This document shows, piece by piece, positions 11,492 to 47,568 of a DNA stretch of 64,000 nt. Below the pieces are notes generated by a model that made no database searches, had not been told where the DNA came from, and saw nothing but the letters and a program-made list of their open reading frames with translations. This DNA comes from Lachnospiraceae bacterium oral taxon 096. Lineage in GTDB: Bacteria; Bacillota; Clostridia; Lachnospirales; Lachnospiraceae. The stretch lies in contig CP073340.1 in assembly GCA_018141845.1 (NCBI GenBank), forward strand, positions 1,265,001 to 1,329,000, given 5' to 3'. Every line of letters begins with the position of its first letter. Position 1 is the first letter of the stretch. The position numbers and the translations under genes are program-made.

Positions 11492-11884
11492 ATGGCTAAC
11501 GATAAGTTTTATGGAACAGGTAGAAGAAAAAAGTCTATCGCCAGAGTATATTTAACACCTGGTACAGGTAAGATCACAATTAATAAGAGAGATATTGACA
11601 GCTACTTCGGTCTTGAGACACTCAAGGTTGTAGTTCGTCAGCCACTTGTAGCAACAGAGACAGTTGACAAGTTCGATGTGCTTGTAAATGTTCACGGTGG
11701 TGGATTTACAGGTCAGGCAGGTGCTGTAAGACATGGTATCTCAAGAGCACTTTTGCATGCAGATGCTGAGTACCGTCCAGTTCTTAAGAGAGCAGGATAT
11801 CTCACAAGAGATCCTAGAATGAAAGAGCGTAAGAAGTACGGTCTCAAAGCCGCTCGTCGTGCTCCACAGTTCTCAAAGAGATAA
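11492..11884 (+). CDS. rpsI: 30S ribosomal protein S9
   Basis: S9 lies in the small-subunit head; its C-terminal tail reaches the P-site tRNA. 130 residues, complete: [41 protein letters not shown], and the basic end [17 protein letters not shown]. The last 16 codons form the attachment site of the adjacent integrative element, and the same 50 bp recur at 42554-42603. The gene stays full length because the element restores the same C terminus. AAAGGAG precedes the ATG. Confidence 0.98.
11835..11884 (+). repeat. Attachment site (attL) at the 3' end of rpsI
   Basis: 50 bp covering the last 16 rpsI codons plus stop. It is identical to 42554-42603, and near-identity continues past the stop. The bases just before it differ (GAAGA here, GGTG at the other site), which marks the outer limit of the repeat. 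The 3' end of rpsI is a known tyrosine-integrase target for Firmicute integrative elements. Confidence 0.85.
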
Positions 11885-11904
11885 TCGAAAATTTCAAAAT
11901 GCTA

Positions 11905-11941
11905 AAAAAGCTCGGAAAATATGCCATTTTTCGGGCTTTTT
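11905..11941 (+). terminator. Terminator downstream of rpsI
   Basis: AAAAAGCTCGGAAAAT pairs with ATTTTTCGGGCTTTTT (two G-U pairs) around an ATGCC loop. The same structure is repeated beside the second att copy. Confidence 0.8.
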
Positions 11942-12011
11942 CTATGCCCAAAATTCTGTCTGGACTGTTCGGTTTTGATGGAATTTGAACGGAAATTTAT
12001 GGGTTTATAGT

Positions 12012-12073
12012 GGTCAAATTACTGGTGGACAAGCCCATTTTGACCTCTTATGGGTCAAATTACTGGTGGACAA
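12012..12073 (+). repeat. Pair of 21-bp direct repeats, likely integrase arm sites
   Basis: GGTCAAATTACTGGTGGACAA occurs at 12012-12032 and 12053-12073, 41 bp apart. The same pair lies at 42731-42792 beside the second element. Closely spaced direct repeats just inside an att core are the usual arm-type sites of tyrosine integrases. This role is inferred. Confidence 0.55.
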
Positions 12074-12136
12074 TAGGAGCAAATGCAATCCAATTTTGCC
12101 ATCGACGGACGAACACATACTTGACTGATTTACATA

Positions 12137-12188
12137 GAGCCTTGGCTCATTCTTTGAAAACGAGAATGGGTCGAGGCTCTATTTTTTT
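12137..12188 (+). terminator. Hairpin with T-run before the antirepressor gene
   Basis: GAGCCTTGGCTCATTCT pairs imperfectly with AGAATGGGTCGAGGCTC, followed by seven Ts. It may stop transcription entering the element from rpsI. Confidence 0.65.
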
Positions 12189-12232
12189 CGCCCGAAATCC
12201 GGCGAGACAAATTTGAGTAGGAGGTAACAGGT

Positions 12233-12808
12233 ATGACGGATTTCAATCAGAAGTCCCATGACACCGATGTGGGCAGTCATGGCGGACAGTCGAGGCAGAT
12301 GATGGAGGTGTTTGAGAACCAGGAGTTTGGTTCGATCCGGTTGTTACAGGAGGCAGGCAAGACCTTCTTCTGCGCAAGCGATGTGGCGAAAGCGTTGGGG
12401 TATGTGAATCCCTACGCCGCTGTGAAACGCCATTGCAGAGGCCTCCTAATGAAACGCAAGGGGGTCGTTCAGAAGGTGAATCAGTATGGGGATGCTGGAG
12501 AGCAGGTCGTTGAAATCTCCTTTATTACGGAAGGCGATGTTTACCGGCTGATCGTCCACAGCAAACTGCAATCGGCAGAACGATTTGAGCACTGGGTGTT
12601 TGATAAAGTTCTCCCGTCCATCCGAAAGTATGGAGTGTATATGAGCGATTCCATTTTGGATCAGGTGATTCAGCATCCGGAGGTCATCTACACCCTGGCA
12701 AAGGAGCTTGTAGCCGAGAGGGGGCAGCTTGAGGGTATCCGCAAACAGCTGGATGCGGCGCAGCCCAAGGCAGACTACTTCGATACCTTTGTGAATTCGG
12801 AGGGATGA
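12233..12808 (+). pseudogene. Phage-type antirepressor (Bro-N), C-terminally truncated, copy 1
   Basis: 191 residues carrying a Bro-N domain (FGSIRLLQEAGKTFFCASDV, AKALGYVNPYAAVKRHCRG, FITEGDVYRLIVHSKL) and a linker ending KADYFDTFVN. Antirepressors of this family normally continue with a C-terminal KilA-C/ANT DNA-binding domain. Here it is missing, and the frame ends at a TGA inside sequence belonging to virB4. The same truncation exists at 42953-43528, so it predates the duplication. The Bro-N part might still be translated (AGGAGG upstream). Confidence 0.75.
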
Positions 12809-13302
12809 ATGCGCTGTCCAACAACCTGATTATGGTTGACCGGAAAAAGCTCAAAAACCCCAATGGGCTGATCCTTGGTACCCCCCGGTTCCGGTAAATC
12901 CTTTTCTGCCAAGCGTGAAATCGCCAATGCGTTTCTGGTGACGGATGATGATGTAATCGTGTGCGATCCGGAAGCCGAGTACACGGCACTGGTGCAGAAA
13001 TTTGAGGGGCAGGTTATTAAAATCAGCCCTTCCAGTACGCAGTATATCAATCCGATGGACATCAACGCGAATTATTTGGAAGAGGATAATCCGATTGCCC
13101 TGAAAGCAGATTTTATCCTGTCCCTGTGCGAGCTGATCGTGGGCGGCAAGGAAGGCTTGCAGCCGGTAGAAAAGACAGTCATCGACCGCTGTGTTTATCA
13201 GATTTACCAGACCTATTTTGAGAACCCGGTGCCGGAGAATATGCCGGTGTTGCAGGACTTGTACGAGGCACTGCTTCGGCAGGATGAAAAGGAAGCACAC
13301 CA
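12809..13302 (+). pseudogene. VirB4-like conjugation ATPase fragment, copy 1
   Basis: Internal piece of a VirB4/TraE ATPase that powers the type IV secretion channel. Recognisable are NALSNNLIMVDRKKLKNPNG, the Walker A GTPGSGKS, VCDPEAEYTALV and PINPMDINAN-like segments up to ALLRQDEKEAHHVATA. Both ends are missing. A run of six Cs at 12881-12886 (five in copy 2) shifts the frame inside the Walker A and reaches a TAA at once. The fragment joins directly to an NlpC/P60 domain. Confidence 0.8.
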
Positions 13303-13660: not shown

Positions 13661-14829
13661 CGGCAAGAACCTTTACGACTACTGCATTTGCCTATACGGG
13701 TGAGGATGGGCAGAAGAATACGTTTGTCAGTACTGCTGCTCAGGAAGCAGATGTGGCGGAAAGCGCAAATGCAGGGAAAACAGACTGTGACGGCAACATC
13801 GAAATCGACCCGGATATGCAGGTGCTGCCGGATGGCTACGAAGTCGCTACGGATGCGGATGGGAACCTGATCGTTACGGTGGGCGGCAAAGAATACAACA
13901 TCGGCGGCGAAAAGTCCTAAAAGCAGACTGGTACGGTGGTGCCGGGTATCACCAGCCTGCATTTTCGTTCCGGTCCCGGCATGGATCAGGAGATTATTGG
14001 GTATCTGCATTCCGGCGATACAGTGGAGATTGTCGAAAAATGCGGTGACTGGTATAAGGTGAACTTCAACGGCAAAACCGGGTATGCACATGAAAAGTAC
14101 CTGAATGTCACGGATTCTGCAAAAGACAGCAGCATGTTCAGTGAAGATGCTCTGAAGCTGTTTCTGGATCTGACGCAGAGCGGACTGTCATCCGAGAGTG
14201 AAAAGGAATCCAGTACAGCTTTGACCCCGGAAGGCAATATGACGCTGGTGGACGATATCGGTGAGGAAGAAGATAAATCCAGCCAGCAGTTCATCACGCT
14301 GGTGACAAAGGCGGGCAACACCTTCTATCTGATTATCGACCGCGATAAAGACGGCAACCAGAATGTGCATTTCCTGAATATGGTGGATGAGGCCGATTTG
14401 CTTGCGCTGATGGATGAAGAGGAAGCCGCCAAGTATCAGGAGAAGGAGCCGGAAGTCACGGAACCTGCGGAAACCGAAAAGCCGCAGGAGACGGAGCCTG
14501 CACCGGAAGAGCAGAAAACAGAGAGTGAGCAGAAGACGGAACCTGCACCAGAAGAAAAGAAAACAGAGAGCGAGCAGAAGAAAGCTTCTCCGCTTCCGAT
14601 GATTATGCTGCTTCTGTTTGTAATTGGAGCAGCCGGTGTCGGCGGCTATCTCTATATCAAGATGAGGGGCGTAAAGCCTGCATCCAAGAAAAATTAGCCA
14701 GACCCTGATGCAGATTATCATGATGAGGATGAAGATGCACTCCAGCTGCCGGAGGATGATGGTGACGAGGACGAAGAAGTGGATGCCAACGAGGATTACG
14801 AAGCAGAATCGGACGATGAACCTGTCTGA
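13661..14829 (+). pseudogene. DUF4366/CD1107-family surface protein, broken copy 1
   Basis: Compared with the intact copy at 44698-45861, this one lacks the start and most of the signal peptide. It has TAA at 13918 where copy 2 has CAA, and TAG at 14695 where copy 2 has CAG. The SH3b-like part (LHFRSGPGMDQEIIGYLHSG), the DUF4366 region, a Glu/Pro-rich linker and the membrane helix MIMLLLFVIGAAGVGGYLYI remain. The linker has one extra EPAPEE-type repeat relative to copy 2. An internal frame (13936-14697) could give an unanchored fragment, but probably none is made. Confidence 0.8.
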
Positions 14830-15351: not shown

Positions 15352-15460
15352 GCAAGTCAAATTCCAGTTTGTAAACCTAAAACAGAATACCATTCCTTAC
15401 ATAGCAGTCATGCGCTTCGGTGTTTGGCTGCTAATTTTTTTGCGAAAGGAGCAGTATCGA

Positions 15461-17540
15461 ATGAAGCTTGTATTAGCGGAAACGCCCTCGGTTGCCATGA
15501 GTCTCTCGAAGGTGATCGGGGCAAATCAGCGAGGGGACGGTTATATGGAGGGCAATGGCTACCTTGTCAGTTGGTGTGGGCATCTGGTGGAACTTTCCCA
15601 GCCGGAAGCCTATGATGAAAAGTATGCCAAGTGGAGGTATGATGATCTTCCAATTTTGCCGGAACATTGGCAGTATCAGGTGTTCGCCAGCACGAAAAAG
15701 CAGTTTGGAATCCTGAAAAAGCTCATGCAGCAGAAAGATGTGGAGAGCCTGATCTGTGCAACCGATGCAGGGCGTGAGGGAGAACTGATTTTTCGATTGG
15801 TTTACCATCAGTGTGGCTGCAAAAAGCTGGTGGAACGCCTTTGGATTTCCTCAATGGAGGACAGTGCTATCCGGGAAGGCTTTCAGAAGCTCAGACCGGG
15901 AACTGAATATGATGCCTTATATGAGGCGGCTTTATGCCGGGAGCGTGCCGACTGGATTGTCGGAATCAACGCCACCCGGCTTTTCTCATGTCTGTATGGG
16001 CAGACCTTGAATGTGGGGCGCGTGATGACACCAACGCTTGCGATGGTGGTCATGCGGGATGCAGCTATTCGGGCGTTCAAGTCGGAACCATTCTACTCGG
16101 CAGAATTAAAATTCCGGGATTTCCAAGCGGGCGGTGAGCGGATGAAAGAAAAAGCAGAAGCAGAAAAACTGGTGGCAGAGTGCTGTCAGGCGGGAAGTGC
16201 CATCATTACTAAGGTGGAGCAGAAAGAAAAATCAGAGAAGCCCCCGGCCTTGTTTGATCTGACCTCGCTTCAGAGAGAAGCAAACCGGCAGCTGGGATTC
16301 ACTGCCCAGCAGACCCTGGATTACACACAGGCTCTGTACGAGAAGAAACTCGTAACCTATCCCCGTACCGACAGCCGGTATCTGACGGATGATATGGCAC
16401 CGCTGGTACCGGAACTTGTTTCTGTGATCCAGCAGAGCTTTCAGATTCAGCCGGATGTGTTGGCACCGGTGAATGCAGCGCAGGTCATCAATTCCAAGAA
16501 AGTCACCGATCACCATGCCATTATTCCTACAAAAACAGCGGCAGGTTATGATATTTTCTCTCTTCCCAGTGGAGAACAGGCGATTCTTACTCTGTTGGCG
16601 GTGCGGCTGATTTGTGCAGTCGGAACACCTTGCCTCTATGCAGAAACCGTAGTAGAAGTGGAGTGCGCCGGTCAGAAGTTCCGTACAAAAGGCAAAACAG
16701 TCACGGATATGGGCTGGAGACGATATGCAGGAAAGCCAAGTGAAGAGGCTGAGAAGAATGCGGAGGCAGGTGAACTGCCGGAGCTTTCGGAAGGCATGAC
16801 AGTGGAACTTGCCCGTGTCGATTTGAAAGAAGGTAAGACCAGCCCACCCAAGAGGTTTACCGAAGATCTTCTGCTTTCAGCGATGGAGAGTTCCAGCTCG
16901 GATGAATTTCCGGCCGGCGTAGAGCGAAAAGGCATCGGCACACCAGCCACACGCGCTGCCATTATCGAAAAAATTGGTACAGAAAGGCTTTATCGAGCGC
17001 AGGGGTGATAAGAAAACGAAATACCTTTGCTCTACGGACAAGGGAAATGCGCTGGTGACGGTGGTGCCGGAACAGATTCAGTCCCCATCTATGACGGCAG
17101 ACTGGGAGGAAAAACTGCTGAAAATAGAACACGGCGAGTATGACAGTGATGCCTTTATGGACGAAATCAGCAGCATGGTCAACGGACTTGTTAAAACCTA
17201 CGAGGCTGTAAAAGGAGCCGATGTGCTGATGCAGCAGCCGGAACGCAAAGTCATTGGTTCCTGCCCGGCCTGCGGCAGTGATGTCTGCGAAACGGCAAAG
17301 GGATGGTTTTGCAGGGATAAGAGCTGTAAATTTGCGCTCTGGAAGGATAATAGATTTTTTCAGACACTGGGCAAGTAGATGACGGAGGAACTGGCAAAGC
17401 AACTGGTAAATCAGGGAAAAGCACGGCTTACACATTGCTATTCCAAGAAGTCCAATCGTTACTATGACACAACCGTTCATGTAGAGACCGGCGAGGACGG
17501 TGCAGCAGCATTTAAGCTGGAGTTTGGAGGTAAAAAATGA
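15461..17540 (+). pseudogene. topB: DNA topoisomerase III (ICE-borne), frameshifted
   Basis: Type IA topoisomerase encoded by Tn1549-like elements. The ATG at 15461 has GAAAGGAG upstream; longer frames to 15410 are unlikely. Visible: the TOPRIM start MKLVLAETPSVAMSLSKVIG, acidic triad region ATDAGREGELIF, active-site tyrosine in VTYPRTDSRYL, and DHHAIIPT. At about 16970-16985 an A-run indel shifts the frame (EKIGTERLY instead of EKLVQKGFIERR). The C-terminal zinc finger CPACGSDVC/CRDKSCKFALW continues in another frame, and a TAG at 17376 interrupts LGK-MTEELAK before the real end GGKK. It cannot give a full protein. Confidence 0.88.
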
Positions 17541-20056: not shown

Positions 20057-21467
20057 AGCAGTGTCTGGCTGACCGTACTGATTATTCTGAGAATGCAGCA
20101 AAGACGGAAGATGGAAAATATATCAGCGCGTATGCCTGTGACGCAAAGACCTGTGATGAAGAATTTCTGCTTTCTAAACGGCAGTATGAGCATATCACCG
20201 GTAGAACCCAGGCGCATGATGTGATTGCATATCAGATTCGGCAATCTTTTAAGCCTGGGGAAATCACGCCGGAGGAGGCGAACAAGGTTGGGTATGAGAC
20301 AGTCATGCGATTCACCAAGGGAAAACACGCATTTATCGTGGCTACCCATGTTGATCGTGCGCACATTCATAACCACATTATTTTTAATTCGACTACATTA
20401 GACTGCACCAGAAAATTCCGCGATTTTCGTCTGTCAGGTCTTGCGTTGGCGAGGCTCAGTGACATCGTCTGCCTGGAACACCGGTTGTCGGTCATTATCC
20501 GGAAGCCCTATGGAGAACGGCAGAAGAGAACGGAATACCCGGAGAAAAAATCGCAGCGGGATGAAATCTGCGAGTCCATTGATGCAGCATTGGCAAGAAA
20601 ACCAAAAGACTTTCGGGAACTGATTGGAATTTTGCAAGAGGCAGGATACGAGTATAAAGATGGAAAACAGCCTGCCCTACGGGGAAAAGGTTATGTCAGA
20701 TTTGCTCGTTTCCGCTCTCTGGGCAAAGGATATTCGATTGAAGAACTCTGCGAGGTGATTGCAGGGAATGCGGTTCATAAAAGCAAATTTGCAGAGAAAA
20801 CCCGCACAAGTGCACGGTCGGCACAGGTGCATCAGAAGGAGGAGTTGTCGTTCCTTATTGATGTCCGTGCCAAAATGCAGGAGGGCAAAGGCGCGGGATA
20901 TGCGCGCTGGGCAAAAGTCTTTAATCTGAAACAGATGGCGAAAGCGATGATGTTCATGGAAGAGCATGGAATCAAGAGCTATGCAGAGCTGAAAGAAAAG
21001 GCAGATGGAATTTCTGAAAAATGTGATGCGTGCTGGAATCTGTAAAGGCAGATGAGGCACGGATGTCGGAAGTGTCGGTGCTGCGGAAGCATCTAATCAA
21101 TTATGCCAAGACAAAAGATGTTTTTGCCGCTTATAAAGCATCCGGTTACAATCGGGAGTTCTATGAAGCCCATCGGGATATGCTGGCCTTGCGCAGCGCA
21201 GCAAAAAAGGCGTTTGATGCCTATAAGAAAGAGAACGGTTCTGACAAAAAGCTTCCACGCATCAGCGAGCTGAACGCAGAGTATGCGATGCTCCTGGAAC
21301 GAAAGAAAAGCTCCTATGCAGAGTACCGCAAGACCAAATCGGAAATGCAAGATTGGCTCGTGGCGCAGAAGATTGTGCAGGAAATCCTGAAAGAGGACGA
21401 ACAGAAGAAAGAGCAGCTGCATGAGCAGGAAGTGTGGCAAGAAGAAAATAAGGAGAATAGTAGATGA
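20057..21467 (+). pseudogene. MobP-type relaxase (Rlx-like), 5' truncated and frameshifted
   Basis: Relaxase that nicks oriT and pilots the transferred strand. The first ~40 residues, including the N-terminal catalytic region, are lost at the joint near 20057. The remaining frame gives YACDAKTCDEEFLLSKRQYE, then HDVIAYQIRQSFKPGEITPE and the three-His metal motif HVDRAHIHNHIIFNS. A second defect near 21030 shifts the frame; the C-terminal coiled region (MSEVSVLRKHLINYAKTKDV to EENKENSR) continues to 21467. The element therefore lacks its own working relaxase. Confidence 0.85.
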
Positions 21468-21473
21468 TGGAAT

Positions 21474-35207: not shown

Positions 35208-35300
35208 ACATACATTCGACATCCTTGAAGGAAGTGGTGTACGCCATGATAATAAAAGTGACAACACGCAATGTATGAAGATAGACGAGGAGGAGAACAC

Positions 35301-36158: not shown

Positions 36159-36200
36159 GGACAGAGAAAATAATAAGAACTTGGAAAGGAGGTAATTCTC

Positions 36201-37871: not shown

Positions 37872-37930
37872 AAATGGTATAATATTGTTAATTATTTAGA
37901 GAGAAAAATTAGAATTTACAGAGGAAGAGT

Positions 37931-38497
37931 ATGAGTAAAAAATTGGAGGAAATGAGCTTAAAAGAACTTTGGCAATTATTTCCGATATTTTTAGTTGAAT
38001 ATAATAAAAAGTGGATAATATGGTATGATGAAGAAAGAAAATCGATTTTATCAGCGGTTCCAAATATGTATATAAAAAGAATATCTCATATCGGTAGCAC
38101 CGCTATATTGGGTATATGGGCAAAAAATATTGTGGATATATTGGTTGAAGTAAACAATAAAGAAGAATTAGATGTTGTTAAAAATATACTCATAAATAAT
38201 GGATGGCTATGTATGAATGTGGCTGAAACTCGTACCACATTAAATAAAGGGTATACGGAACAAGGATTTGCGGAAAAGGTATTTCCTCTTCATATTAGAA
38301 TTGCCGGAGATAATGATGAATTGTATTTCAGAGATTATTTGAATGAGCATAAGAAAATAGCTAAAGAATATGAAACTTTAAAACTATCTCTTTGGAAAGA
38401 ATTTGAACATGATAGAGATGGATATACAAATGCAAAAGCGGAATTTATAAATAAATATACAAATTTAGCAAAAAATGAATATGGAGGAAGATATTAA
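37931..38497 (+). CDS. GrpB-family nucleotidyltransferase-like protein
   Basis: 188 residues. The GrpB/UPF0157 signature is visible as ISHIGSTAILGIWAKNIVDI (usual form: hIGSTAVpGl.aKpiiDi), plus FPLHIRIAGDNDELYFRDYL, with HIRI replacing the usual HlHv. The fold is that of nucleotidyltransferases; some GrpB-like proteins modify CoA metabolism or drugs, but no role is assured. It is cargo in the slot between recombinase and mobilization genes. Confidence 0.8.
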   Translation: MSKKLEEMSLKELWQLFPIFLVEYNKKWIIWYDEERKSILSAVPNMYIKRISHIGSTAILGIWAKNIVDILVEVNNKEELDVVKNILINNGWLCMNVAETRTTLNKGYTEQGFAEKVFPLHIRIAGDNDELYFRDYLNEHKKIAKEYETLKLSLWKEFEHDRDGYTNAKAEFINKYTNLAKNEYGGRY

Positions 38498-38557
38498 ATA
38501 ACTTCCAGTTTGTCGAAGTAAAACAATTAAATACAAGCTATAACATAGCAGTTCACG

Positions 38558-38590
38558 AAACAGTAAATCAAATCGGTTTACTGTTTTTTT
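38558..38590 (+). terminator. Terminator upstream of DUF3847 gene
   Basis: AAACAGTAAA-TCAAATCGG-TTTACTGTTT followed by further Ts. A very similar module lies at 41803-41837. Confidence 0.8.
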
Positions 38591-38625
38591 TATTGCTCAA
38601 AATTAGAAAGAGAGGAAAAGAGAAA

Positions 38626-38946
38626 ATGAAAAATATAGACAAAAAAATCTTAATGGCGGAAGAAGAAATCAAGCAGTTACAAAACAAAAGAAAGAAACTC
38701 ATCAGTCAGCAGAAACAGGAAGAGCGAAAGAAAAGAGATAGACGTCTTTATGAAAAAGGAGCAGTCTTTGAAAGTATCTTTACCGAAAGCAAGGATTTTA
38801 CCAAAGATGAATTCTATCAGCTAATCACATTCCCAAAAATCAAAGAAGAAGTCAATCAAAAAATCCTAAAAATCATAGAGAAGCGAGAACAAAGCGAAAA
38901 TCGAAATACAGGAACACAAGAGGAAGAAATGGAAACAGAGGAATAA
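38626..38946 (+). CDS. DUF3847 mobilization accessory protein
   Basis: 106 residues from ATG 38626 (AGAGAGG upstream). It is almost entirely helical and charged: KILMAEEEIKQLQNKRKKLI, then EERKKRDRRLYEKGAVFESI and a Glu-rich end. DUF3847 proteins sit immediately before MobQ-type oriT/relaxase modules in Firmicutes and probably act in the relaxosome like MobC-type accessory proteins; that role is inferred. Confidence 0.75.
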   Translation: MKNIDKKILMAEEEIKQLQNKRKKLISQQKQEERKKRDRRLYEKGAVFESIFTESKDFTKDEFYQLITFPKIKEEVNQKILKIIEKREQSENRNTGTQEEEMETEE

Positions 38947-38950
38947 TCCC

Positions 38951-39060
38951 TTGTTAACAAGGGCGCACTTATACACCCTAAAGGGTGTGTGCGTTCTCCG
39001 AAGGCTCTTAGCAGAGGGCATATCAGCTAACGCTGATACAGGGGAGCTACACTCCCCTAC
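38951..39060 (-). other. oriT with RSF1010-like nick site
   Basis: On the minus strand, 38971 to 38959 reads TAAGTGCGCCCTT, matching the TAAGTGCGCCCT nick core known for RSF1010/MobQ-type oriTs. Beside it, CGCAC-TTAT-ACACCCT can pair with AGGGTGT-GTGCG, giving the expected inverted repeat next to nic. Two further hairpins follow (CAGCTAACGCTGATA region and GGGGAG/CTCCCC). The MobQ relaxase starts 130 bp downstream. Confidence 0.75.
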
Positions 39061-39186
39061 GGAAATAAATTTCCTACCCCTTGTGTACTTCCCAAAAGAA
39101 ATCGGATAAAAAGCAATCCGATTTTTTTAGGAAGTCTTTATCATCGCCACCATATCCATATCAGAAAAGAGAGGAGGTTTTTTCTT

Positions 39187-40647
39187 ATGGCGATATATCA
39201 TCTCAGTATAAAGATTATCTCAAGAGGAAAAAATAAAAGTGCAGTAGCAGCTTCCGCTTATCGTAGTGGCGAAAAAATAAAAAACGAATATGACGGCATA
39301 GTCCACGACTTTACAAGAAAAGGAGGAATAGCCCATACAGAAATCCTATTGCCACAAAATGCACCACAGGCATTTTTAGACAGGGGAACATTATGGAATA
39401 GCGTAGAGAAAATAGAAAAGAGTAAAAACTCACAGCTTGCAAGAGAAATCGAAATTGCTTTACCTAAAGAACTAAATCGAGAAAAACAGATTGAACTTGT
39501 TAGGGAGTATGTAAAAGATAATTTTGTAAATGTTGGTATGTGTGCCGACATTGCCTTACACGATAAAAATGATGGAAACCCACACGCACATATCCTACTA
39601 ACAATGCGACCGTTAAATGAAGATACAACATGGGGAGCAAAATCAAAAAAGGAATATATCCTTGATGAAAACGGAGAAAAAGTAAAACTTAAAAACGGCA
39701 ATTACAAAACAAGAAAGATAAATACAACGGACTGGAACGAGCAAGAAAAGGCTGAGCAGTGGAGGAAAGCATGGGCAGGTATTACAAACAAATATCTTGA
39801 AGGAAACAGCATACAGGAAAAAGTAGACCATCGTTCCTATCAAAGACAGGGCATAGAGCAAATACCGACAATTCATTTAGGAGTATCAGCAACTCAAATG
39901 GAGAAGAAAGGTATTGTTACAGACAGAGGAAATATCAATCGGGAAATCAGATATCAGAACAAAATATTAAGAGAAATCTCAAGAAGAATAAAAGCCTTAT
40001 TAAATTGGATAAGGGGAATTGGAAAAGAAGAAAAAGCAGAAACGGAAAACATAAAATCTACCCTCCCACCAAAAGAAAACCTATTATCTGTTTTTGAAAA
40101 CCTTATCCGTAACAATGCAGATAACTATAATGCAGACTTAGAAAAATATATTGAGAGTTATCAGCTACTTAAAGAGAAAAACATCACTTCATTATCGGAG
40201 TTAAAAGGAAATATACTTGCTTTAAGAGATAAGAACTACAAGACTACAAGAGTCTTAAAAGATGTTGAAAAGAAAGTGGATGATAACACCAAACTTATCG
40301 AACAAGCAGAGAAGTATTTGAAGCATAAAGACATCTACAAAGCCTATACAAAATTGAAGAAAAGCAAACAGGAATATTTTTACAACGAACATGTCGCAGA
40401 GCTTATTTTGTTTGAGAGTGCTAAGAAATATCTGAAAGAGCATTTAGGAGAAAACAAGACCTTAGCCATCAGTAAATGGAAATCAGAACTTATCACTTTG
40501 AAGAAAGAGAAAAAGAGCCTATACAATCAAATATTAGAAATACGAGAAGAAGTTGAACAAGCTGAAAAAGTTAAGACTTGTATTGAACAGTTACAGGAAC
40601 ATTCAAAGCAACTAACACAGGTAAAATGGAACGAGTTAGACCTATAA
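39187..40647 (+). CDS. mobA: MobA/MobL-family (MobQ) relaxase
   Basis: 486 residues. N-terminal relaxase domain: MAIYHLSIKIISRGKNKSAV, AASAYRSGEKI (catalytic Tyr region), and the metal-binding His motif in DGNPHAHILLTMR, with upstream HDKN. Then a helical C-terminal half with coiled coils (LKKSKQEYFYNEHVAELILF). GGAGG precedes the start. It should nick the adjacent oriT and use a host conjugation channel supplied in trans; the surrounding ICE can no longer supply it. Confidence 0.92.
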   Translation: MAIYHLSIKIISRGKNKSAVAASAYRSGEKIKNEYDGIVHDFTRKGGIAHTEILLPQNAPQAFLDRGTLWNSVEKIEKSKNSQLAREIEIALPKELNREKQIELVREYVKDNFVNVGMCADIALHDKNDGNPHAHILLTMRPLNEDTTWGAKSKKEYILDENGEKVKLKNGNYKTRKINTTDWNEQEKAEQWRKAWAGITNKYLEGNSIQEKVDHRSYQRQGIEQIPTIHLGVSATQMEKKGIVTDRGNINREIRYQNKILREISRRIKALLNWIRGIGKEEKAETENIKSTLPPKENLLSVFENLIRNNADNYNADLEKYIESYQLLKEKNITSLSELKGNILALRDKNYKTTRVLKDVEKKVDDNTKLIEQAEKYLKHKDIYKAYTKLKKSKQEYFYNEHVAELILFESAKKYLKEHLGENKTLAISKWKSELITLKKEKKSLYNQILEIREEVEQAEKVKTCIEQLQEHSKQLTQVKWNELDL

Positions 40648-40708
40648 AATCAAGCGAAAAAATGGTATAATATTAAACAAGTATTTGATTTTGGAGGTGC
40701 TTAAATTC

Positions 40709-41128
40709 ATGGATGAAAGAGAGAAAATCATTCGTTTATGGTTTGATATGTGGCTTACACAACAAGACTTAGGAATAGATGATATTTTTTTGGATGATGT
40801 GATTTATATTGAGAGTTGGTGTCCTAAGTATGAAAATCGGCAAACAGTAAAGCACTGGTTTAATGAGTGGAATACAAGAGGAAAAGTTCTTGCGTGGGAT
40901 ATAAAGCAATTTTTTCATAAGGATAATCAAACTATTGTAGAATGGCACTTCAAAAATAAAATGAATGAGGGGAAAGTTGAAGAATTTGACGGTATCTCTT
41001 TGATTGTTTGGACAGCCGATAATAAGATAAAAGCGTTGAAAGAGTTTGGTTGTAATTGTAACAACTACAATCCTTACAAAGAGAGTGAAACACCATTATT
41101 TAGAGATGAAAAAGTAAATTGGTTTTGA
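40709..41128 (+). CDS. NTF2-like/SnoaL-fold protein
   Basis: 139 residues. The pattern REKIIRLWFDMWLTQQDLGI, VIYIESWCPKYENR, VKHWFNEWNTRGKVL and IVEWHFKNKMNEGKVEEFDG is typical of nuclear-transport-factor-2-like proteins, cone-shaped folds that bind or convert small molecules. The substrate cannot be predicted. ATG 40709 is chosen with TTGGAGGTG upstream. Cargo of the mobilizable element, 15 bp before the SAP gene. Confidence 0.7.
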   Translation: MDEREKIIRLWFDMWLTQQDLGIDDIFLDDVIYIESWCPKYENRQTVKHWFNEWNTRGKVLAWDIKQFFHKDNQTIVEWHFKNKMNEGKVEEFDGISLIVWTADNKIKALKEFGCNCNNYNPYKESETPLFRDEKVNWF

Positions 41129-41143
41129 GGAGATAAAATATTG

Positions 41144-41758
41144 ATGGAAAGTAGACCTGAGTTTGACAAAATTACATCGTTTGATGAATTTACTAAATAC
41201 TATTGGTATCGTGAAGAACTTTCACAGATATGCAAGTCATTAGGATTAGAATATAGAGGCACAAAACAGGAACTCAATTATATTATTGAGCAATACTTTA
41301 AGGGCAATTTGATTAAAAAATCATCAATAAAAAATGAAAAGAAGCAAGTGGAAAATATTACTTTAGATACACCATTACTTGAATGTGGTTTTTCTTTTAA
41401 TGCAAAGTTCAGAGAATATTTCACTGTTTTAACAGGTATCTCACCATTTAAATTTACTGCTGATATGGCAACAGTTTGGAGAAAAGTAAAAAGAGAAAAT
41501 GATTTGAGTTTTACAATTCAAGATATGCTAAAAGTTTATTATGGGAAATCAGATTATGCAAAGTATGATAATTCGGTTTGTCAATGGAATCAATTTTTAA
41601 AGGATTTCTGTGCAGACGAAAATAGTTGCAACTACTCAAACAAATTAAAAGTAGCTTCTATTCTTTGGAAAGAAGTCAGAAATTCAAGAAATGAAAAAAT
41701 TTATTCAAAGAATCTTTTGACTGAATATGCCGATAAAATAAAAGAGTATTGCAAGTAG
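41144..41758 (+). CDS. SAP-domain protein
   Basis: 204 residues. An N-terminal SAP-like helix-extended-helix (YWYREELSQICKSLGLEYRG, TKQELNYIIEQYF) normally binds DNA. The middle and C-terminal part (FNAKFREYFTVLTGISPFKF, ADMATVWRKVKRENDLSFTI, WNQFLKDFCADENS) is like the DUF6434-type extension seen in such proteins. Role unknown; possibly a transcription or stress factor carried as cargo. Confidence 0.7.
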   Translation: MESRPEFDKITSFDEFTKYYWYREELSQICKSLGLEYRGTKQELNYIIEQYFKGNLIKKSSIKNEKKQVENITLDTPLLECGFSFNAKFREYFTVLTGISPFKFTADMATVWRKVKRENDLSFTIQDMLKVYYGKSDYAKYDNSVCQWNQFLKDFCADENSCNYSNKLKVASILWKEVRNSRNEKIYSKNLLTEYADKIKEYCK

Positions 41759-41802
41759 GATATTTTTAGCTTGCTAAACTAACAATTCAATAAAAGCTAA
41801 CA

Positions 41803-41837
41803 CGAAAGCAGTAAATCAAAAAGGTTTGCTGTTTTTT
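41803..41837 (+). terminator. Terminator upstream of tnpW
   Basis: CAGTAAA-TCAAAAAGG-TTTGCTG (one G-U pair) then TTTTTT. Near-duplicate of the module at 38558. Confidence 0.7.
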
Positions 41838-41865
41838 CTTTGCTTAAAAACGGAAAGGAGGACAC

Positions 41866-42030
41866 ATGGAAGAAGAAAAAAGAGTAATAAAAGAACCACA
41901 ACATAAACAGTTAATAATGGATATTGGAAAAACAAAATACACCGTAAACTTACATTTCAAGCAAGGTACAGGGGAAACATACAAGGATAAAATACTAAAG
42001 CTAATCAAGAGAGAAACAGAGAAGATATAA
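41866..42030 (+). CDS. tnpW: TnpW-family transposon protein
   Basis: 54 residues: MEEEKRVIKEPQHKQLIMDI, GKTKYTVNLHFKQGTGETYK, DKILKLIKRETEKI. This matches the small TnpW proteins of Tn4451-like and related Clostridia transposons, found at the end opposite the recombinase. Function is unproven. CGGAAAGGAGG precedes the ATG. It is short but clearly coding, and supports assignment of the element to this family. Confidence 0.78.
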   Translation: MEEEKRVIKEPQHKQLIMDIGKTKYTVNLHFKQGTGETYKDKILKLIKRETEKI

Positions 42031-42077
42031 ATTTATCAAAAAAATTTTGTTTATGTCCTTGACAAATCTTCCCAAAG

Positions 42078-42446
42078 GGAACTGTTTTGACGGAAACACA
42101 GTTTGTGAGGGTCTGGAAGTACATAACAGTCCGTTCCACCGCAGAACGCTGTTATTACACCTATGTAAGTGGGCAGTCCATCAAGCATAGAATAAAGCCA
42201 AGGCTTGGTGAGCATCAGCCGAACAATCCCAAGCTGGTGTATACGATGGACTTCAAGGTGACTCCGCACATGCTGCGGCACACCTACATCACCAATCTGA
42301 TTTACAAAGGTGTTGATCCAAAGACGGTGCAGTATTTGGCAGGCCATGAGAACAGCAAAACGACTATGGACATCTATGCGAAAGTCAAGTATAATAAACC
42401 TGAGGAATTAAGCAGCGTTGTGAATGCTGCATTCGGGCTGCGTTAA
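42078..42446 (+). pseudogene. int: Tyrosine integrase 2, 3' part
   Basis: Continues the gene begun at 35301: GTVLTETQFVRVWKYITV, then the H-x-x-R box PHMLRHTYITNLI, GHENSKTTMDIYAKV with the nucleophilic Tyr, ending NAAFGLR. All catalytic residues of this half are present. No start of its own is credible. It ends about 107 bp before the rpsI-type att repeat, the normal place for int at the ICE end. Confidence 0.88.
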
Positions 42447-42553
42447 ACTGCACCAAAAATTCCTCGATTTCGTGGGTTTACCTATGGGTTTACTGAGAGA
42501 GGGAAGCCCGAAAACCCGCATGAATACTGGACTTTTTGGATCAAGGTCAGGTG
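42447..42553. other. ICE right-end non-coding region
   Basis: About 107 bp between the integrase stop and the att repeat. Short repeats (GGGTTTACCTATGGGTTTAC) may be integrase arm sites. No gene. Confidence 0.45.
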
Positions 42554-42603
42554 AGTACGGTCTCAAAGCCGCTCGTCGTGCTCCACAGTTCTCAAAGAGA
42601 TAA
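42554..42603 (+). repeat. Internal attachment site: duplicated rpsI 3' end
   Basis: Identical to 11835-11884, coding for [15 protein letters not shown] in the context of rpsI but without the rest of the gene. It is the right boundary of ICE copy 1 and the left boundary of copy 2, so two elements lie in tandem. Confidence 0.9.
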
Positions 42604-42623
42604 TCGAGAATTTCAAAATGCTA

Positions 42624-42660
42624 AAAAAGCTCGGAAAATATGCCATTTTTCGGGCTTTTT
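42624..42660 (+). terminator. Copy 2 of the rpsI-distal terminator
   Basis: Same AAAAAGCTCGGAAAAT/ATTTTTCGGGCTTTTT hairpin as 11905-11941. Confidence 0.75.
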
Positions 42661-42730
42661 CTATGCCTAAAATTCTGTCTGGACTGTTCGGTTTTGATGG
42701 AATTTGAACGGAAATTTATGGGCTTATAGT

Positions 42731-42792
42731 GGTCAAATTACTGGTGGACAAGCCCATTTTGACCTCTTATGGGTCAAATTACTGGTGGACAA
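42731..42792 (+). repeat. Direct repeats beside att, copy 2
   Basis: GGTCAAATTACTGGTGGACAA at 42731-42751 and 42772-42792, spaced exactly as in copy 1. A hairpin with T-run (42856-42909) follows. Confidence 0.55.
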
Positions 42793-42952
42793 TAGGAGCA
42801 AATGAAGTCCAACTTTGCCATCGACGGACGAACACATACTTGACTGATTTACATAGAGCCTTGGCTCATTCTTTGAAAACGAGAATGGGTCGAGGCTCTA
42901 TTTTTTTTCGTCCGAAATCCGGCGAGACAAATTTGAGCAGGAGGTAACAGGT

Positions 42953-43528
42953 ATGACGGATTTCAATCAGAAGACCCATGACACCGATGTGGGCAGTCAT
43001 GGCGGACAGTCGAGGCAGATGATGGAGGTGTTTGAGAACCAGGAGTTTGGTTCGATCCGGTTGTTACAGGAGGCAGGCAAGACCTTCTTCTGTGCAAGCG
43101 ATGTGGCGAAAGCGTTGGGGTATGTGAATCCCTATGCCGCTGTGAAACGCCATTGCAGAGGCCCCCTAATGAAACGCAAGGGTGTCGTTCAGAAGGTGAA
43201 TCAGTATGGGGATGCTGGAGAGCAGGTCGTTGAAATCTCCTTTATCACAGAAGGCGATGTTTACCGACTGATCGTTCACAGCAAACTGCCATCGGCAGAA
43301 CGATTTGAACACTGGAGGTTTGATGAAGTTCTCCCGTCCATCCGAAAGTATGGAGTGTATATGAGCGATTCTATTTTGGATCAGGTGATTCAGCATCCGG
43401 AGGTCATCTACACCCTGGCAAAGGAGCTTGTAGCCGAGAGGGGGCAGCTTGAGGGTATCCGCAAACAGCTGGATGCGGCGCAGCCCAAGGCAGACTACTT
43501 CGATACCTTTGTGAATTTGGAGGGCTGA
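42953..43528 (+). pseudogene. Phage-type antirepressor (Bro-N), truncated, copy 2
   Basis: 191 residues, differing from copy 1 at a few positions (for example KTHD for KSHD, GPLMKR for GLLMKR, WRFDEVLPS for WVFDKVLPS). It ends in the same DTFVN-x-EG-stop joint with virB4. The C-terminal DNA-binding domain is missing. An AGGAGG site is present, so a Bro-N-only protein could be produced and may affect gene regulation. Confidence 0.75.
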
Positions 43529-44022
43529 ATGCGCTGTCCAACAACCTGATTATGGTTGACCGGAAAAAGCTCAAAAACCCCAATGGGCTGATCCTTGGTA
43601 CCCCCGGTTCTGGTAAATCCTTTTCTGCCAAGCGTGAAATCGCCAATGCGTTTCTGGTGACGGATGATGATGTAATCGTGTGCGATCCGGAAGCCGAGTA
43701 CACGGCACTGGTGCAGAAATTTGAGGGGCAGGTTATTAAAATCAGCCCTTCCAGTACGCAGTATATCAATCCAATGGACATCAACGCGAATTATTTGGAA
43801 GAGGATAATCCGATTGCCCTGAAAGCAGATTTTATCCTGTCCCTGTGCGAGCTGATCGTGGGCGGCAAGGAAGGCTTACAGCCGGTAGAAAAGACAGTCA
43901 TCGACCGCTGTGTTTATCAGATTTACCAGACCTATTTTAAGAACCCGGTGCCGGAGAATATGCCGGTGTTGTAGGACTTGTACGAGGCACTGCTTCGGCA
44001 GGATGAAAAGGAAGCACACCAT
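43529..44022 (+). pseudogene. VirB4-like fragment, copy 2, amber-interrupted
   Basis: Same VirB4 segment as copy 1 but with five Cs, so the Walker A GTPGSGKSFSAK is in frame. Here the defect is TAG at 43972 where copy 1 has CAG (PVLQDLYEAL). The two copies were therefore inactivated independently after the shared fusion arose. Confidence 0.8.
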
Positions 44023-44415
44023 GTGGCAACAGCAGATGAGAAATTCCGAAAGATGATTACCGAAGCAGAGAAATATCTCGGTTATCCCTATGTCTGGGGC
44101 GGCAGTTCACCGAGCACGAGCTTTGATTGCTCCGGTTTTGTCAGCTGGGTCATCAACCACTGCGGCAATGGCTGGAATGTAGGCAGGCAAACGGCCAACG
44201 GTCTGATGGGGAAATGCGACATTATCCCAAAGAGTGAAGCAAAGCTCGGAGACCTGATCTTCTTCCAGAAAACCTACAACACCAGCGGAGCATCCCATGT
44301 GGGCATTTATGTTGGCAACGGGATGATGCTCCACTGCGGCTCACCCATTTCTTATGCTTCCATTGAGACGAGCTACTGGAGGCAGCATTACTACTGTATG
44401 GGAAGAATTCGATAA
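44023..44415 (+). pseudogene. NlpC/P60 domain, copy 2
   Basis: Full-length C-terminal NlpC/P60 domain: YLGYPYVWGGSSPSTSFDCS with the catalytic Cys, SHVGIYVGNGMMLHCGSPIS, and the natural end WRQHYYCMGRIR. It remains fused to VirB4 codons upstream. A start inside (GTG/ATG near 44000) could give a domain-only protein, but it lacks a signal peptide and would not reach the wall. Confidence 0.75.
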
Positions 44416-44449
44416 AACAGGGCGATTATTCGCCCGGAAAGGACACTAT

Positions 44450-44701
44450 ATGAGCTTGAAACTGGAAAAAATTGCTGCGGAGCGTGAGAAAGCCCGCAGA
44501 AAACGCGATGAGTGGGAGGAGCGCAGAAAGGAATGGGACAGAAAGTACCATGAGCAGGAAAACAGCGAAATCTGTGAAATGGTATATGCCCAGAGTCTGA
44601 CTCCGGAACAGCTGGCAGTCATCATTCAGATGGTGCAGGCTGCGGTTCCCAACCCGGAGAACCTGAAACTGGATGAGAAAGAAACGGAGGATATGGAGTG
44701 A
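44450..44701 (+). CDS. DUF4315 protein
   Basis: 83 residues, highly charged N-terminal helix (LEKIAAEREKARRKRDEWEE, RRKEWDRKYHEQENSEI), then YAQSLTPEQLAVIIQMVQ and an acidic tail. DUF4315 genes sit between nlpC/P60 and DUF4366 genes in Tn1549-like elements; function unknown. It overlaps the next gene by 4 bp. This gene was lost from copy 1 by a deletion between two GGCGGCAG/GGAGGCAG-like sequences. Confidence 0.8.
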   Translation: MSLKLEKIAAEREKARRKRDEWEERRKEWDRKYHEQENSEICEMVYAQSLTPEQLAVIIQMVQAAVPNPENLKLDEKETEDME

Positions 44702-45861
44702 AAAAGATGATAGCAATGCTGCTTGCCAGTGTGATGGCGGCAGGAACCTTTACGACCACTGCATTTGCCTATACGGGTGAGGATGGGCAGAAGAATACGT
44801 TTGTCAGTACTGCTGCTCAGGAAGCAGATGTGGCGGAAAGCGCAAATGCAGGGAAAACAGACTGTGACGGCAACATCGAAATCGACCCGGACATGCAGGT
44901 GCTGCCGGATGGCTACGAAGTCGCTACGGATGCGGATGGGAACCTGATCGTTACGGTGGGCGGCAAAGAATACAACATCGGCGGCGAAAAGTCCCAAAAG
45001 CAGACTGGTACGGTGGTGCCGGGTATCACCAGCCTGCATTTTCGTTCCGGTCCCGGCATGGATCAGGAGATTATTGGGTATCTGCATTCCGGCGATACAG
45101 TGGAGATTGTCGAAAAATGCGGTGACTGGTATAAGGTGAACTTCAACGGCAAAACCGGGTATACACATGAAAAGTACCTGAATGTCACGGATTCTGCAAA
45201 AGACAGCAGCATGTTCAGTGAAGATGCTCTGAAGCTGTTTCTGGATCTGACGCAGAGCGGACTGTCATCCGAGAGTGAAAAGGAATCTAGTACAGCTTTG
45301 ACCCCGGAAGGCAATATGACGCTGGTGGACGATATCGGTGAGGAAGAAGATAAATCCAGCCAGCAGTTCATCACGCTGGTGACAAAGGCTGACAATACCT
45401 TCTATCTGATCGTCGACCGCGATAAAGACGGCAACCAGAATGTGCATTTTCTGAATATGGTGGATGAGGCCGATTTGCTTGCTCTGATAGATGAAGAGGA
45501 AGCTGCCAAGTATCAGAAGAAGGAGCCGGAAGTCACGGAACCTGCGGAAACCGAAAAGCCGCAGGAGACGGAACCTGCACCAGAAGAAAAGAAAACAGAG
45601 AGCGAGCAGAAGAAAGCTTCTCCGCTTCCGATGATTATGCTGCTTCTGTTTGTAATTGGAGCAGCCGGTGTCGGCGGCTATCTCTATATCAAGATGAGGG
45701 GCGTAAAGCCTGCATCCAAGAAAAATCAGCCGGATCCTGATGCAGATTATCACGATGAGGATGAAGACGCGCTCCAGCTGCCAGAGGATGATGGTGACGA
45801 GGACGAAGAAGTGGATGTCAACGAGGATTACGAAGCAGAATCGGATGATGAACCTGTCTAA
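44698..45861 (+). CDS. DUF4366 (CD1107-family) surface protein with SH3b-like domain
   Basis: 387 residues, intact in this copy. Signal peptide MKKMIAMLLASVMAAGTFTT, a linker, an SH3b-like wall-binding domain (ITSLHFRSGPGMDQEIIGYL to VNFNGKTGYTHEKYLNV), the DUF4366 domain (QFITLVTKADNTFYLIVDRD), a Pro/Glu-rich stalk, one membrane helix (MIMLLLFVIGAAGVGGYLYI) and a very acidic cytoplasmic tail. Probably a mating-channel surface component. It overlaps DUF4315. Confidence 0.88.
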   Translation: MKKMIAMLLASVMAAGTFTTTAFAYTGEDGQKNTFVSTAAQEADVAESANAGKTDCDGNIEIDPDMQVLPDGYEVATDADGNLIVTVGGKEYNIGGEKSQKQTGTVVPGITSLHFRSGPGMDQEIIGYLHSGDTVEIVEKCGDWYKVNFNGKTGYTHEKYLNVTDSAKDSSMFSEDALKLFLDLTQSGLSSESEKESSTALTPEGNMTLVDDIGEEEDKSSQQFITLVTKADNTFYLIVDRDKDGNQNVHFLNMVDEADLLALIDEEEAAKYQKKEPEVTEPAETEKPQETEPAPEEKKTESEQKKASPLPMIMLLLFVIGAAGVGGYLYIKMRGVKPASKKNQPDPDADYHDEDEDALQLPEDDGDEDEEVDVNEDYEAESDDEPV

Positions 45862-45881
45862 TTAACACTGTGTTGACCTGA

Positions 45882-45908
45882 GGGGCGGCTGAGAAGCCGT
45901 CCCTTTTA
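45882..45908 (+). terminator. Terminator after DUF4366 copy 2
   Basis: GGGCGGCTGAGAAGCCGTCCC and TTTT, as at 14851. Confidence 0.7.
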
Positions 45909-46059
45909 CATAGCTAAATGGTTTGTGAATGGAGTTTTTTGAGCCATGAAGCTATGGAAACTGTAGGTGATATCTGATAAAATAGAGAATAAGAACAGTG
46001 ATACAAATCAGAATTTATCAGAAAATGAGGAATAGTTGAAATGGAGGCGCTATAATAAC

Positions 46060-46383
46060 ATGAAGATTGAAGGGAACCAGAAAGAACTGGATGCAATGGT
46101 AGAATTTCATAAGGGAAACCGTGTCGAGGGGCTGAGACTGCAAGAAGAATTTGCAGCGGAATTTCGTAAGGAGTATAAAGACAAAGATCACTGTCCTTGC
46201 CTGAAAGCCTGTCGTTATCACGGAAACTGTAAGGAATGTGTAGCAATCCACAGAGCGCATCAGGAACATGTTCCTAATTGTATGCGACCATTGATTAATA
46301 AAAAATTGAAATTGATGTCAGAATTAACAGAGCATACCTTGGCAAATGAAATAGAAGCTCCACATGAGATTTTAAGAAAATAG
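46060..46383 (+). CDS. Small cysteine-rich protein, copy 2
   Basis: 107 residues, one substitution (GNQKELD for GKQKELD) from the copy at 15028. The Cys/His cluster CPCLKACRYHGNCKECVAIH is conserved. Retention of an intact frame in both decayed copies, while the genes around it break, suggests selection or simply recent duplication. Confidence 0.65.
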   Translation: MKIEGNQKELDAMVEFHKGNRVEGLRLQEEFAAEFRKEYKDKDHCPCLKACRYHGNCKECVAIHRAHQEHVPNCMRPLINKKLKLMSELTEHTLANEIEAPHEILRK

Positions 46384-46402
46384 GCAAGTCAAATTCCAGT
46401 TT

Positions 46403-46892
46403 GTGAGGATGAATATAGAAATGCTTGTTGATAAAACTTTTTCTAGAAAACTGTATGAATACAAAGATGCTTGTTATCTAATGAGAACAGCATTTCCCAC
46501 AAATGAGCAGATACCGATGTGGCTGTTGAGAGTGTTGGCATTTCGCAAAAATGTCAATTTCAGAGCCTTTTATGATGATGACCAGTTCTGTGGAGTTTTG
46601 TATACAGCTGAGGATAATAAATATATTTTTGTGCTTTATCTGGCAGTAGATGACCGAATCAGATCAAAAGGCTATGGTACGAAGATACTTGACTGGTTGA
46701 AACAGAATACAGAAAAAGAATTTCTTTTTATAATCAGAAAGGAATTTTTGATACTGAATGTAGATTTATTGATGAAGGCGAAACCTATTCTGTACTCGCA
46801 TCTGATATTGAGCACTTTAACTCGAAAGAGTACGAAACGCTCCTGAGCAGATTTTCTTTTAGAACATATAAAAAACACATTACAAGATGATA
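46403..46892 (+). pseudogene. GNAT-family acetyltransferase, frameshifted
   Basis: The first ~105 residues are a GNAT fold (MWLLRVLAFRKNVNFRAFYD, GVLYTAEDNKYIFVLYLAVD, the acetyl-CoA motif RSKGYGTKILDWLKQ). After FIIRKE the frame changes: the tail continues in another frame as RFIDEGETYSVLASDIEHFN and ends near 46889. One or two indels inactivate it. The gene is present only in ICE copy 2. Confidence 0.7.
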
Positions 46893-46916
46893 AATTAGAA
46901 GTTGAGGAGCTGGAAG

Positions 46917-47372
46917 ATGGGCATTAAATTTGAAAGAGGGATCAATAAAAATAATATTGAACTTTTATGTCGTTGGTCCAATGAACTAGGCTCAGCGTTT
47001 CAGGAGCAATGGATGGGCTCTCAAATTCCTTATCCATTGACCTATGATAAAATTAAAAAATTGGAAAATAAGTTTTCTATCTTTAATGAGGAAGAGTTCA
47101 TTGGAATGATACAAGAGGTGCGAATCGAAGAAGATAACATCCATATAGGAAGATTTATATTAAATCCTCAAAAAACAGGATTGGGTTTTGGGACAGAAGC
47201 GTTGAAAGAATTTATAGATTTTATTTTCAAAGATGAAAATATTAGAAGTATTTCCTTAAGCGTTTTTGATTTTAATAAAAATGCAAAGCAGGTTTATGAT
47301 AAGCTTGGATTTGAAGTTGATGAAGTGATTGAAACTCCAAAACTAAAATATATTATGAAAAAACACAGATAA
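46917..47372 (+). CDS. GNAT-family acetyltransferase
   Basis: 151 residues, RimJ/RimL-like. Motif A is GRFILNPQKTGLGFGTEALK (the Q/R-x-x-G-x-G/A acetyl-CoA loop as KTGLGFG), and the C-terminal strand is ISLSVFDFNKNAKQVYDKLG with FEVDEV. The N-terminal LCRWSNELGSAFQEQWMGSQ fits small-molecule or ribosomal-protein acetyltransferases. Substrate unknown. GAGGAG precedes ATG 46917. It is cargo between the Cys-rich gene and the topB remnant of copy 2. Confidence 0.8.
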   Translation: MGIKFERGINKNNIELLCRWSNELGSAFQEQWMGSQIPYPLTYDKIKKLENKFSIFNEEEFIGMIQEVRIEEDNIHIGRFILNPQKTGLGFGTEALKEFIDFIFKDENIRSISLSVFDFNKNAKQVYDKLGFEVDEVIETPKLKYIMKKHR

Positions 47373-47470
47373 ATCGCAATTTGTAGACCTAAAACAGAAT
47401 ATGCTTCCTTACATAGCAGTCATGCACTTCGATATATGGTTGTTAATTTTTGCGAAAGGAACAGTATCGA

Positions 47471-47494
47471 ATGAAGCTTGTATTATCGGAAAAG
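47471..47494 (+). pseudogene. topB start, copy 2 remnant
   Basis: ATGAAGCTTGTATTATCGGA equals the topB start of copy 1 (MKLVLAE, here MKLVLSE). The upstream 80 bp also match. Homology then stops, which defines the right limit of ICE copy 2. The frame continues into unrelated codons (VGETSADFLDGEQ) up to the next gene. Confidence 0.75.
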
Positions 47495-47568
47495 TTGGTG
47501 AAACATCTGCGGATTTTCTTGATGGAGAACAGAGAAAGCTGTTTAAAACTGAGGGTATAAGGAGTGTT

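Follow-up and report, generated by a model that had tools for sequence, protein, structure and literature searches.

A probable tandem array formed by one decayed integrative and conjugative element lineage behind rpsI in Lachnospiraceae bacterium oral taxon 096

In the genome of Lachnospiraceae bacterium oral taxon 096, the last 50 bp of the ribosomal protein gene rpsI occur a second time without the rest of the gene, and a run of mobile-element genes follows each copy. How did the two runs come to stand one behind the other at the end of this gene? The window, i.e. the whole stretch analysed here, covers 64,000 nucleotides (contig CP073340.1, positions 1,265,001 to 1,329,000), and coordinates are counted from its first letter. 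Very probably, the first run (element 1, 11885-42553) and the second (the relic) form a tandem array that is site-specific for the rpsI 3' end: element 1 is a decayed integrative and conjugative element (ICE) from a family of gut Clostridia specific for rpsI, and the relic is another copy of this lineage, in which the deletions were already present.

The two attachment site (att) copies at the rpsI tail, 11835-11884 and 42554-42603, are identical in 50/50 bases, and their starts are 30,719 bp apart. The order at the second copy is element 1 right arm, att, left end of the relic; two elements with a shared att copy are thus found at one target site, the arrangement that defines tandem accretion. 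A 91-base query from the att point has 2 matches in the whole one-contig genome (2,241,876 bases), and the third att copy beyond the window that the initial annotation had considered is absent from these matches. In an ungapped scan of the window and the next 20 kb, the next best place agrees in 28/50 positions.

The left ends that follow the two att copies are collinear, with the same terminator, direct repeats and gene order, and their overall identity is 96.46% over 3,618 aligned bases (97.7, 97.5 and 96.4% in the individual blastn pieces). The initial annotation, which had described the head-to-tail pair and the loss of the second right end, was correct in these points and in its coordinates and gene order. 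The alignment contains gaps of 358, 45 and ~980 bp: 358 bp of copy 2 are absent from copy 1 (near 13657), and 45 bp of copy 1 are absent from copy 2. The copies diverge by 1-4% per 500 bp. Homology ends near 47494, ~0.1 kb inside topB, after a final stretch of only 86-87% identity, and no outer att follows. A cis-mobilizable element (CIME) retains both att copies and has no integration or transfer genes; the relic is not a CIME, since the outer att was not found. The more decayed copy in the window is the distal one.

Comparison with the related elements of G325 (Roseburia inulinivorans DSM 16841; reference element on contig C172) and G324 reveals two deletion junctions common to both copies, between 12801 and 12802 (43521 and 43522 in the relic) and between 13315 and 13316 (44034 and 44035). 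Relative to G325, the first deletion removed 9.6 kb from Bro-N to the middle of virB4 and the second 2.0 kb from mid-virB4 to NlpC; both deleted stretches are present in G324 as well as in G325. The presence of two exact deletion junctions in both copies points to one decayed lineage and not to two independent ICEs. The two elements of the initial annotation therefore stand as a tandem, but as copies of one decayed element.

The G325 element encodes ParB, a coupling protein in two open reading frames (ORFs), TrbL/VirB6, PrgI, VirB4 (814 aa), NlpC/P60, a 2,454-aa SNF2-type protein, a 490-aa relaxase and topB as a 709-aa ORF. Element 1 lacks a further 8 kb relative to G325, with a deletion end inside the relaxase gene. 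Of the relaxase, coupling protein (two ORFs) and VirB4 genes, all present in the G325 relative, it retains a remnant, nothing and a fragment, respectively; both of its integrase genes are broken, and it is a decayed ICE at most. The 30.7-kb extent first assigned to it is upheld, but the element is not intact: conjugation genes are deleted, the relaxase and int1 are broken, int2 is split and the arms are unmatched. By descent it belongs to the rpsI-specific ICE family, sharing the rpsI-tail att, the right-end recombinase pair and the same backbone. The whole genome contains no match to the coupling-protein profile PF02534, other coupling-protein families not having been sought; as a control, the profile search was positive in 5/14 genomes. 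Because both integrases are broken and the genome has no PF02534 match, element 1 is probably stranded today, unable to excise or transfer alone.

The right end of element 1 carries a second mobile element. A nested element of 33% G+C, absent from the initial annotation, splits int2 behind codon ~292, a point at which the gene is continuous in 6/6 loci at 95-98% identity, L037 being cut further on by a contig end. The nested element (36147-42079) has its own recombinase and relaxase and no conjugation apparatus, with no type IV secretion system match among six of its ORFs scanned, and is thus an integrative and mobilizable element (IME). Its recombinase has relatives at 96-97% in 2/367 other family genomes (G062 and G005). 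In G005, a relative of the nested element (L218:1676-7264) is situated inside a coupling-protein gene, and the insertion flanks, searched separately, both match PF02534. The sites in int2 and in G005 have a common AAGG-type core. The location in a PF02534 gene indicates that the nested element is not specific for int2, and the relatives at other places (G062, G005) suggest that it is mobile. Among plasmids, 101 records gave partial matches, none covering 80% of it. The paired integrases were also considered as a sign of a third fused element, which was rejected because adjacent pairs are usual in the rpsI-element family. A literature search for mobilizable elements inserted in the integrase gene of an ICE returned no paper, which is not proof of absence.

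Relatives of int2, searched with its 5' part, were found in 27 loci of named genomes. Six loci show 95-98% identity: Pseudoflavonifractor sp. MSJ-30, an uncultured Lachnospiraceae bacterium, R. inulinivorans DSM 16841, a Roseburia metagenome-assembled genome, Enterocloster hominis and Gemmiger formicilis. The rpsI tail lies at most 300 bp behind the last integrase in 20/27 loci. Among the remainder, the sequences of L037 and L055 stop short, the integrases of L059 and L060 are partial (a partial tail lies 1 kb off in L060), L046 has no tail behind its integrase, and the tail of L058 is ~7 kb away. Two adjacent integrases are present in 18/27 loci (the first truncated in L047), one in 5/27, and cut or partial ones in 4/27. 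In the bacterial family of the window, 16/299 genomes, the window's included, contain int2 relatives (E up to 1e-60), with at least two integrase matches in 15/16, one of these partly on another contig. The distance from rpsI to the tail behind the integrase pair is 44-92 kb in seven genomes (G025, G035, G190, G138, G169, G046 and G249). We also note several deviating loci. The pair at L052:8718-11970 stands apart in facing a full rpsI that lies on the opposite strand; G046 has a second pair (L142:10647-13202), for which the 20 kb retrieved contain no rpsI tail and which may occupy another site; and elements of ~8-10 kb with whole or partial integrases lie between rpsI and an rpsI tail at L047:1424-11514 and L060:3647-11695 (the L060 tail being partial).

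Tandems at rpsI are not confined to the window. In a search of 15 chosen genomes and 397 family genomes, a Bro-N gene at least 90% identical to that of the window was found in 10 other genomes, always behind an rpsI tail: in 7/10 behind the full rpsI, and in 3/10 (G325, G169, G138) following the right end of another rpsI element. A long left-end match follows the right end in 5/31 cases (G025, G138, G169, G325 and the window), or 4/30 without the window, a set that is not independent, since L051 nearly duplicates L056 and L036 comes from the G325 genome; terminator-only matches (e.g. L034, L048) were not counted. The proximal neighbour in the G325 tandem is seen at its right end only, and the distal element in G025, with a single arm repeat, is itself a remnant. 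Accretion, which the initial annotation had raised as possible beside the reuse of one att site, thus recurs at rpsI, and stacking is an already known kind of event. The features of the window are summarized in Table 1.

Table 1. Coordinates of the features of the rpsI tandem
Feature	Position	Strand	Basis or comparison
rpsI, complete	11492..11884	+	74-94% vs rpsI of relatives
att copy 1, last 50 bp of rpsI	11835..11884	+	identical to 42554-42603
Terminator-like hairpin and T run 3' of rpsI, repeated in copy 2 (putative)	11905..11941	+	sequence read directly
Left-arm direct repeats, type I, two 21-bp copies (12012, 12053), 41 bp apart	12012..12073	+	
Bro-N protein, 191 aa (276 aa in G325), 3' end lost to first common deletion	12233..12808	+	PF02498
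Fused remnant, VirB4 piece joined to NlpC/P60	12875..13870	+	DUF87, NLPC_P60, deletion junctions
CD1107-like mobile element protein, 5' end lost via copy-1 deletion	13936..14697	+	PF14283
topB, two ORFs (15410-17008, 16974-17378); single ORF in G325	15410..17378	+	PF01131
Relaxase remnant, two ORFs, start deleted; single ORF in G325	20221..21467	+	PF03432 from profile position 45
Cargo: ArsR-type regulator, heavy-metal P-type ATPase, DUF6921 protein, cytochrome b-like protein	25888..31994	+	
Cargo, continued: fumarate reductase/succinate dehydrogenase-like flavoprotein and iron-sulphur protein	within 25888..31994	+	
int1, tyrosine recombinase, frameshifted	34004..35153	+	59-bp loss relative to L034
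int2, 5' part	35271..36146	+	95-98% to L034-L039
Nested mobilizable element, 5,933 bp, ends uncertain within shared AAAGGG	36147..42079	+	int2 uninterrupted in L034-L039
Large serine recombinase of nested element	36201..37871	+	PF00239, PF07508
MobQ-family relaxase of nested element	39187..40647	+	PF03389; NF041496 above cut-off
int2, 3' part with catalytic C-terminus	42080..42446	+	PF00589
Right-arm repeat, type II	42472..42495	+	
att copy 2, separates element 1 from relic	42554..42603	+	identical to 11835-11884
Relic: left end of second copy of decayed element; right end and att lost	42604..47494	+	
Left-arm repeats of relic, type I, two copies (42731, 42772)	42731..42792	+	
AT-rich insert (32% G+C, ~0.97 kb), two GNAT-like ORFs, relic only	about 46405..47370	+	

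The arms of the elements bear on the question of how neighbours share one site. A repeat of ~21 bp occurs twice at the left and once at the right in each element read by eye. From its place, its co-variation and general knowledge of tyrosine integrases, we infer that it represents the integrase arm sites. Two arm types, defined between the rpsI tail and Bro-N with alike flanks in both, were distinguished: type I left ends in both window copies, G336, G169, G138 and G230, and type II in G221, G072, G327, G324, G323 and G325. A tree of the Bro-N region (supports 0.68-1.0) does not resolve the two types as separate clades. In local alignments (left-arm window 190 bp for element 1, 220 bp for others where available), the right arm scores 17-24 against its own left arm in 12/12 other elements, 4/12 of these pairs joining ends on different contigs of one genome, compared with a mean of 9.4 (SD 1.6, 99.9 percentile 17, maximum 19, n=4,800) for shuffled right arms. 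The lowest own-arm scores (G190 and G249, both 17) are also reached by a few real different-type pairs, and the test therefore separates the types well but not perfectly. The right arm of element 1 scores 12 against its own left arm and 22 against type II left arms. Right arms score low against the left arm of the next element (12 in G138, 12 in G169, 10 in G325 and 10 in the window), and the tandem neighbours in G025 differ in arm type by eye. No type I right arm was found in the 397 family genomes (at most 2 mismatches) or in the loci examined. Mantel tests of half-repeats against int1 and int2 (16 of 21 extracted elements) gave positive correlations throughout, confounded by phylogeny. Automatic detection of arm repeats by self-similarity was tried and abandoned; most known left ends scored like random segments.

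A rather doubtful conjecture follows these data: the whole family may recognize the rpsI tail as a common core site, and each element's matched pair of left and right arm repeats may work as its private key. Neighbours carrying different keys could stack and yet excise separately, and an exchange leaving unmatched keys, as in element 1, would lock the element and start its decay. Against such a lock, copy 1 retains the half-repeat TGGGTTTA in its left arm (copy 2 has TGGGCTTA).

The mismatch could also signify that element 1 is a hybrid, with a left half of the type I lineage, as in the relic, and a right half (integrases and right arm) from a type II element formerly in tandem with it, the halves being joined after loss of the intervening ends. 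We regard this as possible though not favoured, and it is compatible with the single-lineage array. The identity to type II relatives is 93.3% at the left and 95.8% at the right; however, this step is small, compares different genes and includes a few short secondary matches near 70%, and no breakpoint was located. Moreover, an exchange of arm type can involve no more than a small block whose flanks stay alike. We note that a 0.2-0.3-kb left-arm block (11955-12129, 42674-42848) varies in this manner, as if module-swapped.

Less probable is the independent acquisition of two different ICEs that resemble each other through their common family. Such acquisitions have a parallel in G325, G169 and G138, whose rpsI tandems are of different arm type. 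In the window, the two copies share the same left-arm type and the two exact large deletions, which are absent from G325 and G324. Segmental tandem duplication by general recombination or replication slippage, with no integrase, would account for a left part alone present twice and for the same deletions in both copies. It is very improbable given that the repeat starts exactly at the rpsI tail, the att of the family, and is preceded by the right arm of an element; it would also predict rpsI or upstream DNA at the second copy, where none exists beyond the 50 bp. An assembly artefact is scarcely credible: the tandem is read from the assembled sequence, but the copies differ by 1-4% and several indels, which argues against assembly duplication, the genome is one contig of 100% completeness, and the fused VirB4-NlpC ORF with the C-terminus of element 1 recurs in public protein clusters (89 and 126 members, 97-98% identity, best 7,997 candidates scored).

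The array of one decayed lineage could have arisen as follows. A family member would have integrated at the rpsI tail and left rpsI complete, as the att anatomy indicates. The coupling protein, VirB6, PrgI and most of VirB4 were lost before the copies parted, as the common junctions show. With an integrase still working, a second deleted copy, either excised and integrated anew or acquired again from a close relative, may then have been placed at the shared att site. In the distal copy, the right end and its att are gone and the GNAT insert has been acquired; in the proximal copy, int1 is frameshifted and the serine-recombinase mobilizable element has entered int2, presumably in this late phase.

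Several points weigh against this history. The genus is represented by one genome only, and with no sister genome of the species seen, the timing of the steps is an estimate. A mate would have had to be supplied for the second copy; the helper search covered PF02534. The right boundary between relic and host DNA received no synteny confirmation: none was found between 47.5-64 kb and the DNA behind rpsI of relatives, and EamA relatives, present in 3/60 other genomes, lie elsewhere where tellable (~290 kb from rpsI in G005). Finally, G336 combines a type I left end with near-identical integrases, on different contigs, and mixed arms may therefore be workable.

Comparable systems have been described. 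ICE_RhoA2-183_rpsI of Roseburia hominis A2-183, with a relative in Dorea formicigenerans ATCC 27755, is likewise an ICE in a Lachnospiraceae rpsI that hosts an inserted mobilizable element, IME_Rho_tet (PMC12904643); the likeness is one of description and not of compared sequences. In contrast to the window, IME_Rho_tet is located in a MAFF2 ORF, and the portion of that report considered here mentions no tandem (PMC12904643). Among ICE/IME/CIME composites at rpsI of Streptococcus salivarius, 16/37 are tandems at the 3' end, with the decayed member farthest from the target gene as in the window (PMC7563491). These composites belong to another phylum branch with other integrases, and the authors state that they never found two ICEs in tandem (PMC7563491); unlike a CIME, the window relic has no outer att. 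The three-step model of accretion-mobilization comprises integration, decay and a second integration at the shared att (PMC5704250). In that model, the element already in place is reduced to a CIME with attL and attR retained (PMC5704250), whereas in the window the outer att is gone and a single lineage is involved. The Prevotella elements MTnPi1-3 resemble the rpsI family in having two tandem tyrosine recombinases and not one integrase (PMC5704250). As outlined there, the two are distantly related and belong to IMEs of another phylum (PMC5704250), the comparison being by description and not by kinship.

The cargo ORFs of element 1 are open and match the element of G072 at 97.6-99.5% (99.5% over 26674-32196). 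That element spans 15.7 kb of a single contig and retains both att copies but, of int2, no more than a C-terminal fragment; it carries the same metal-ATPase and fumarate reductase-like cargo and is, as read from its sequence, a cis-mobilizable relative. The cargo flavoprotein matched 449 plasmid records, every one at <60% identity. The cargo P-type ATPase carries repeated HMA domains, and the DUF6921 protein contains a DVVTGAT stretch, which we take to resemble flavinylation motifs. Element 1 also contains an AbiEii fragment (25261-25647) and an AAA protein (32220-32810) whose best PADLOC match is AbiLi. Directly behind the relic, a CmpB-type (PF06541) gene at 47401-48353 is in two ORFs and is probably a pseudogene. 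Farther on, a possible defence cluster (50033-58269) includes a macro-domain protein, an AbiEi/AbiEii pair (52021-53630), an IS3-type transposase (54163-55023, minus strand) and McrBC-like genes (55449-58269).

The rpsI tandem is ordinary in kind, but it is a new, well-resolved example. It resolves how relics build up behind a ribosomal protein gene by separating losses that precede the parting of the copies from those that follow it, and it shows the integrase of one element broken by a second mobile element. The 95-98% integrase identity across Roseburia, Enterocloster, Gemmiger and Pseudoflavonifractor points to recent spread between bacterial families. If the arm-key reading were true, it would provide a simple, testable rule that tells which integrative elements may share a site and how they become stranded there.

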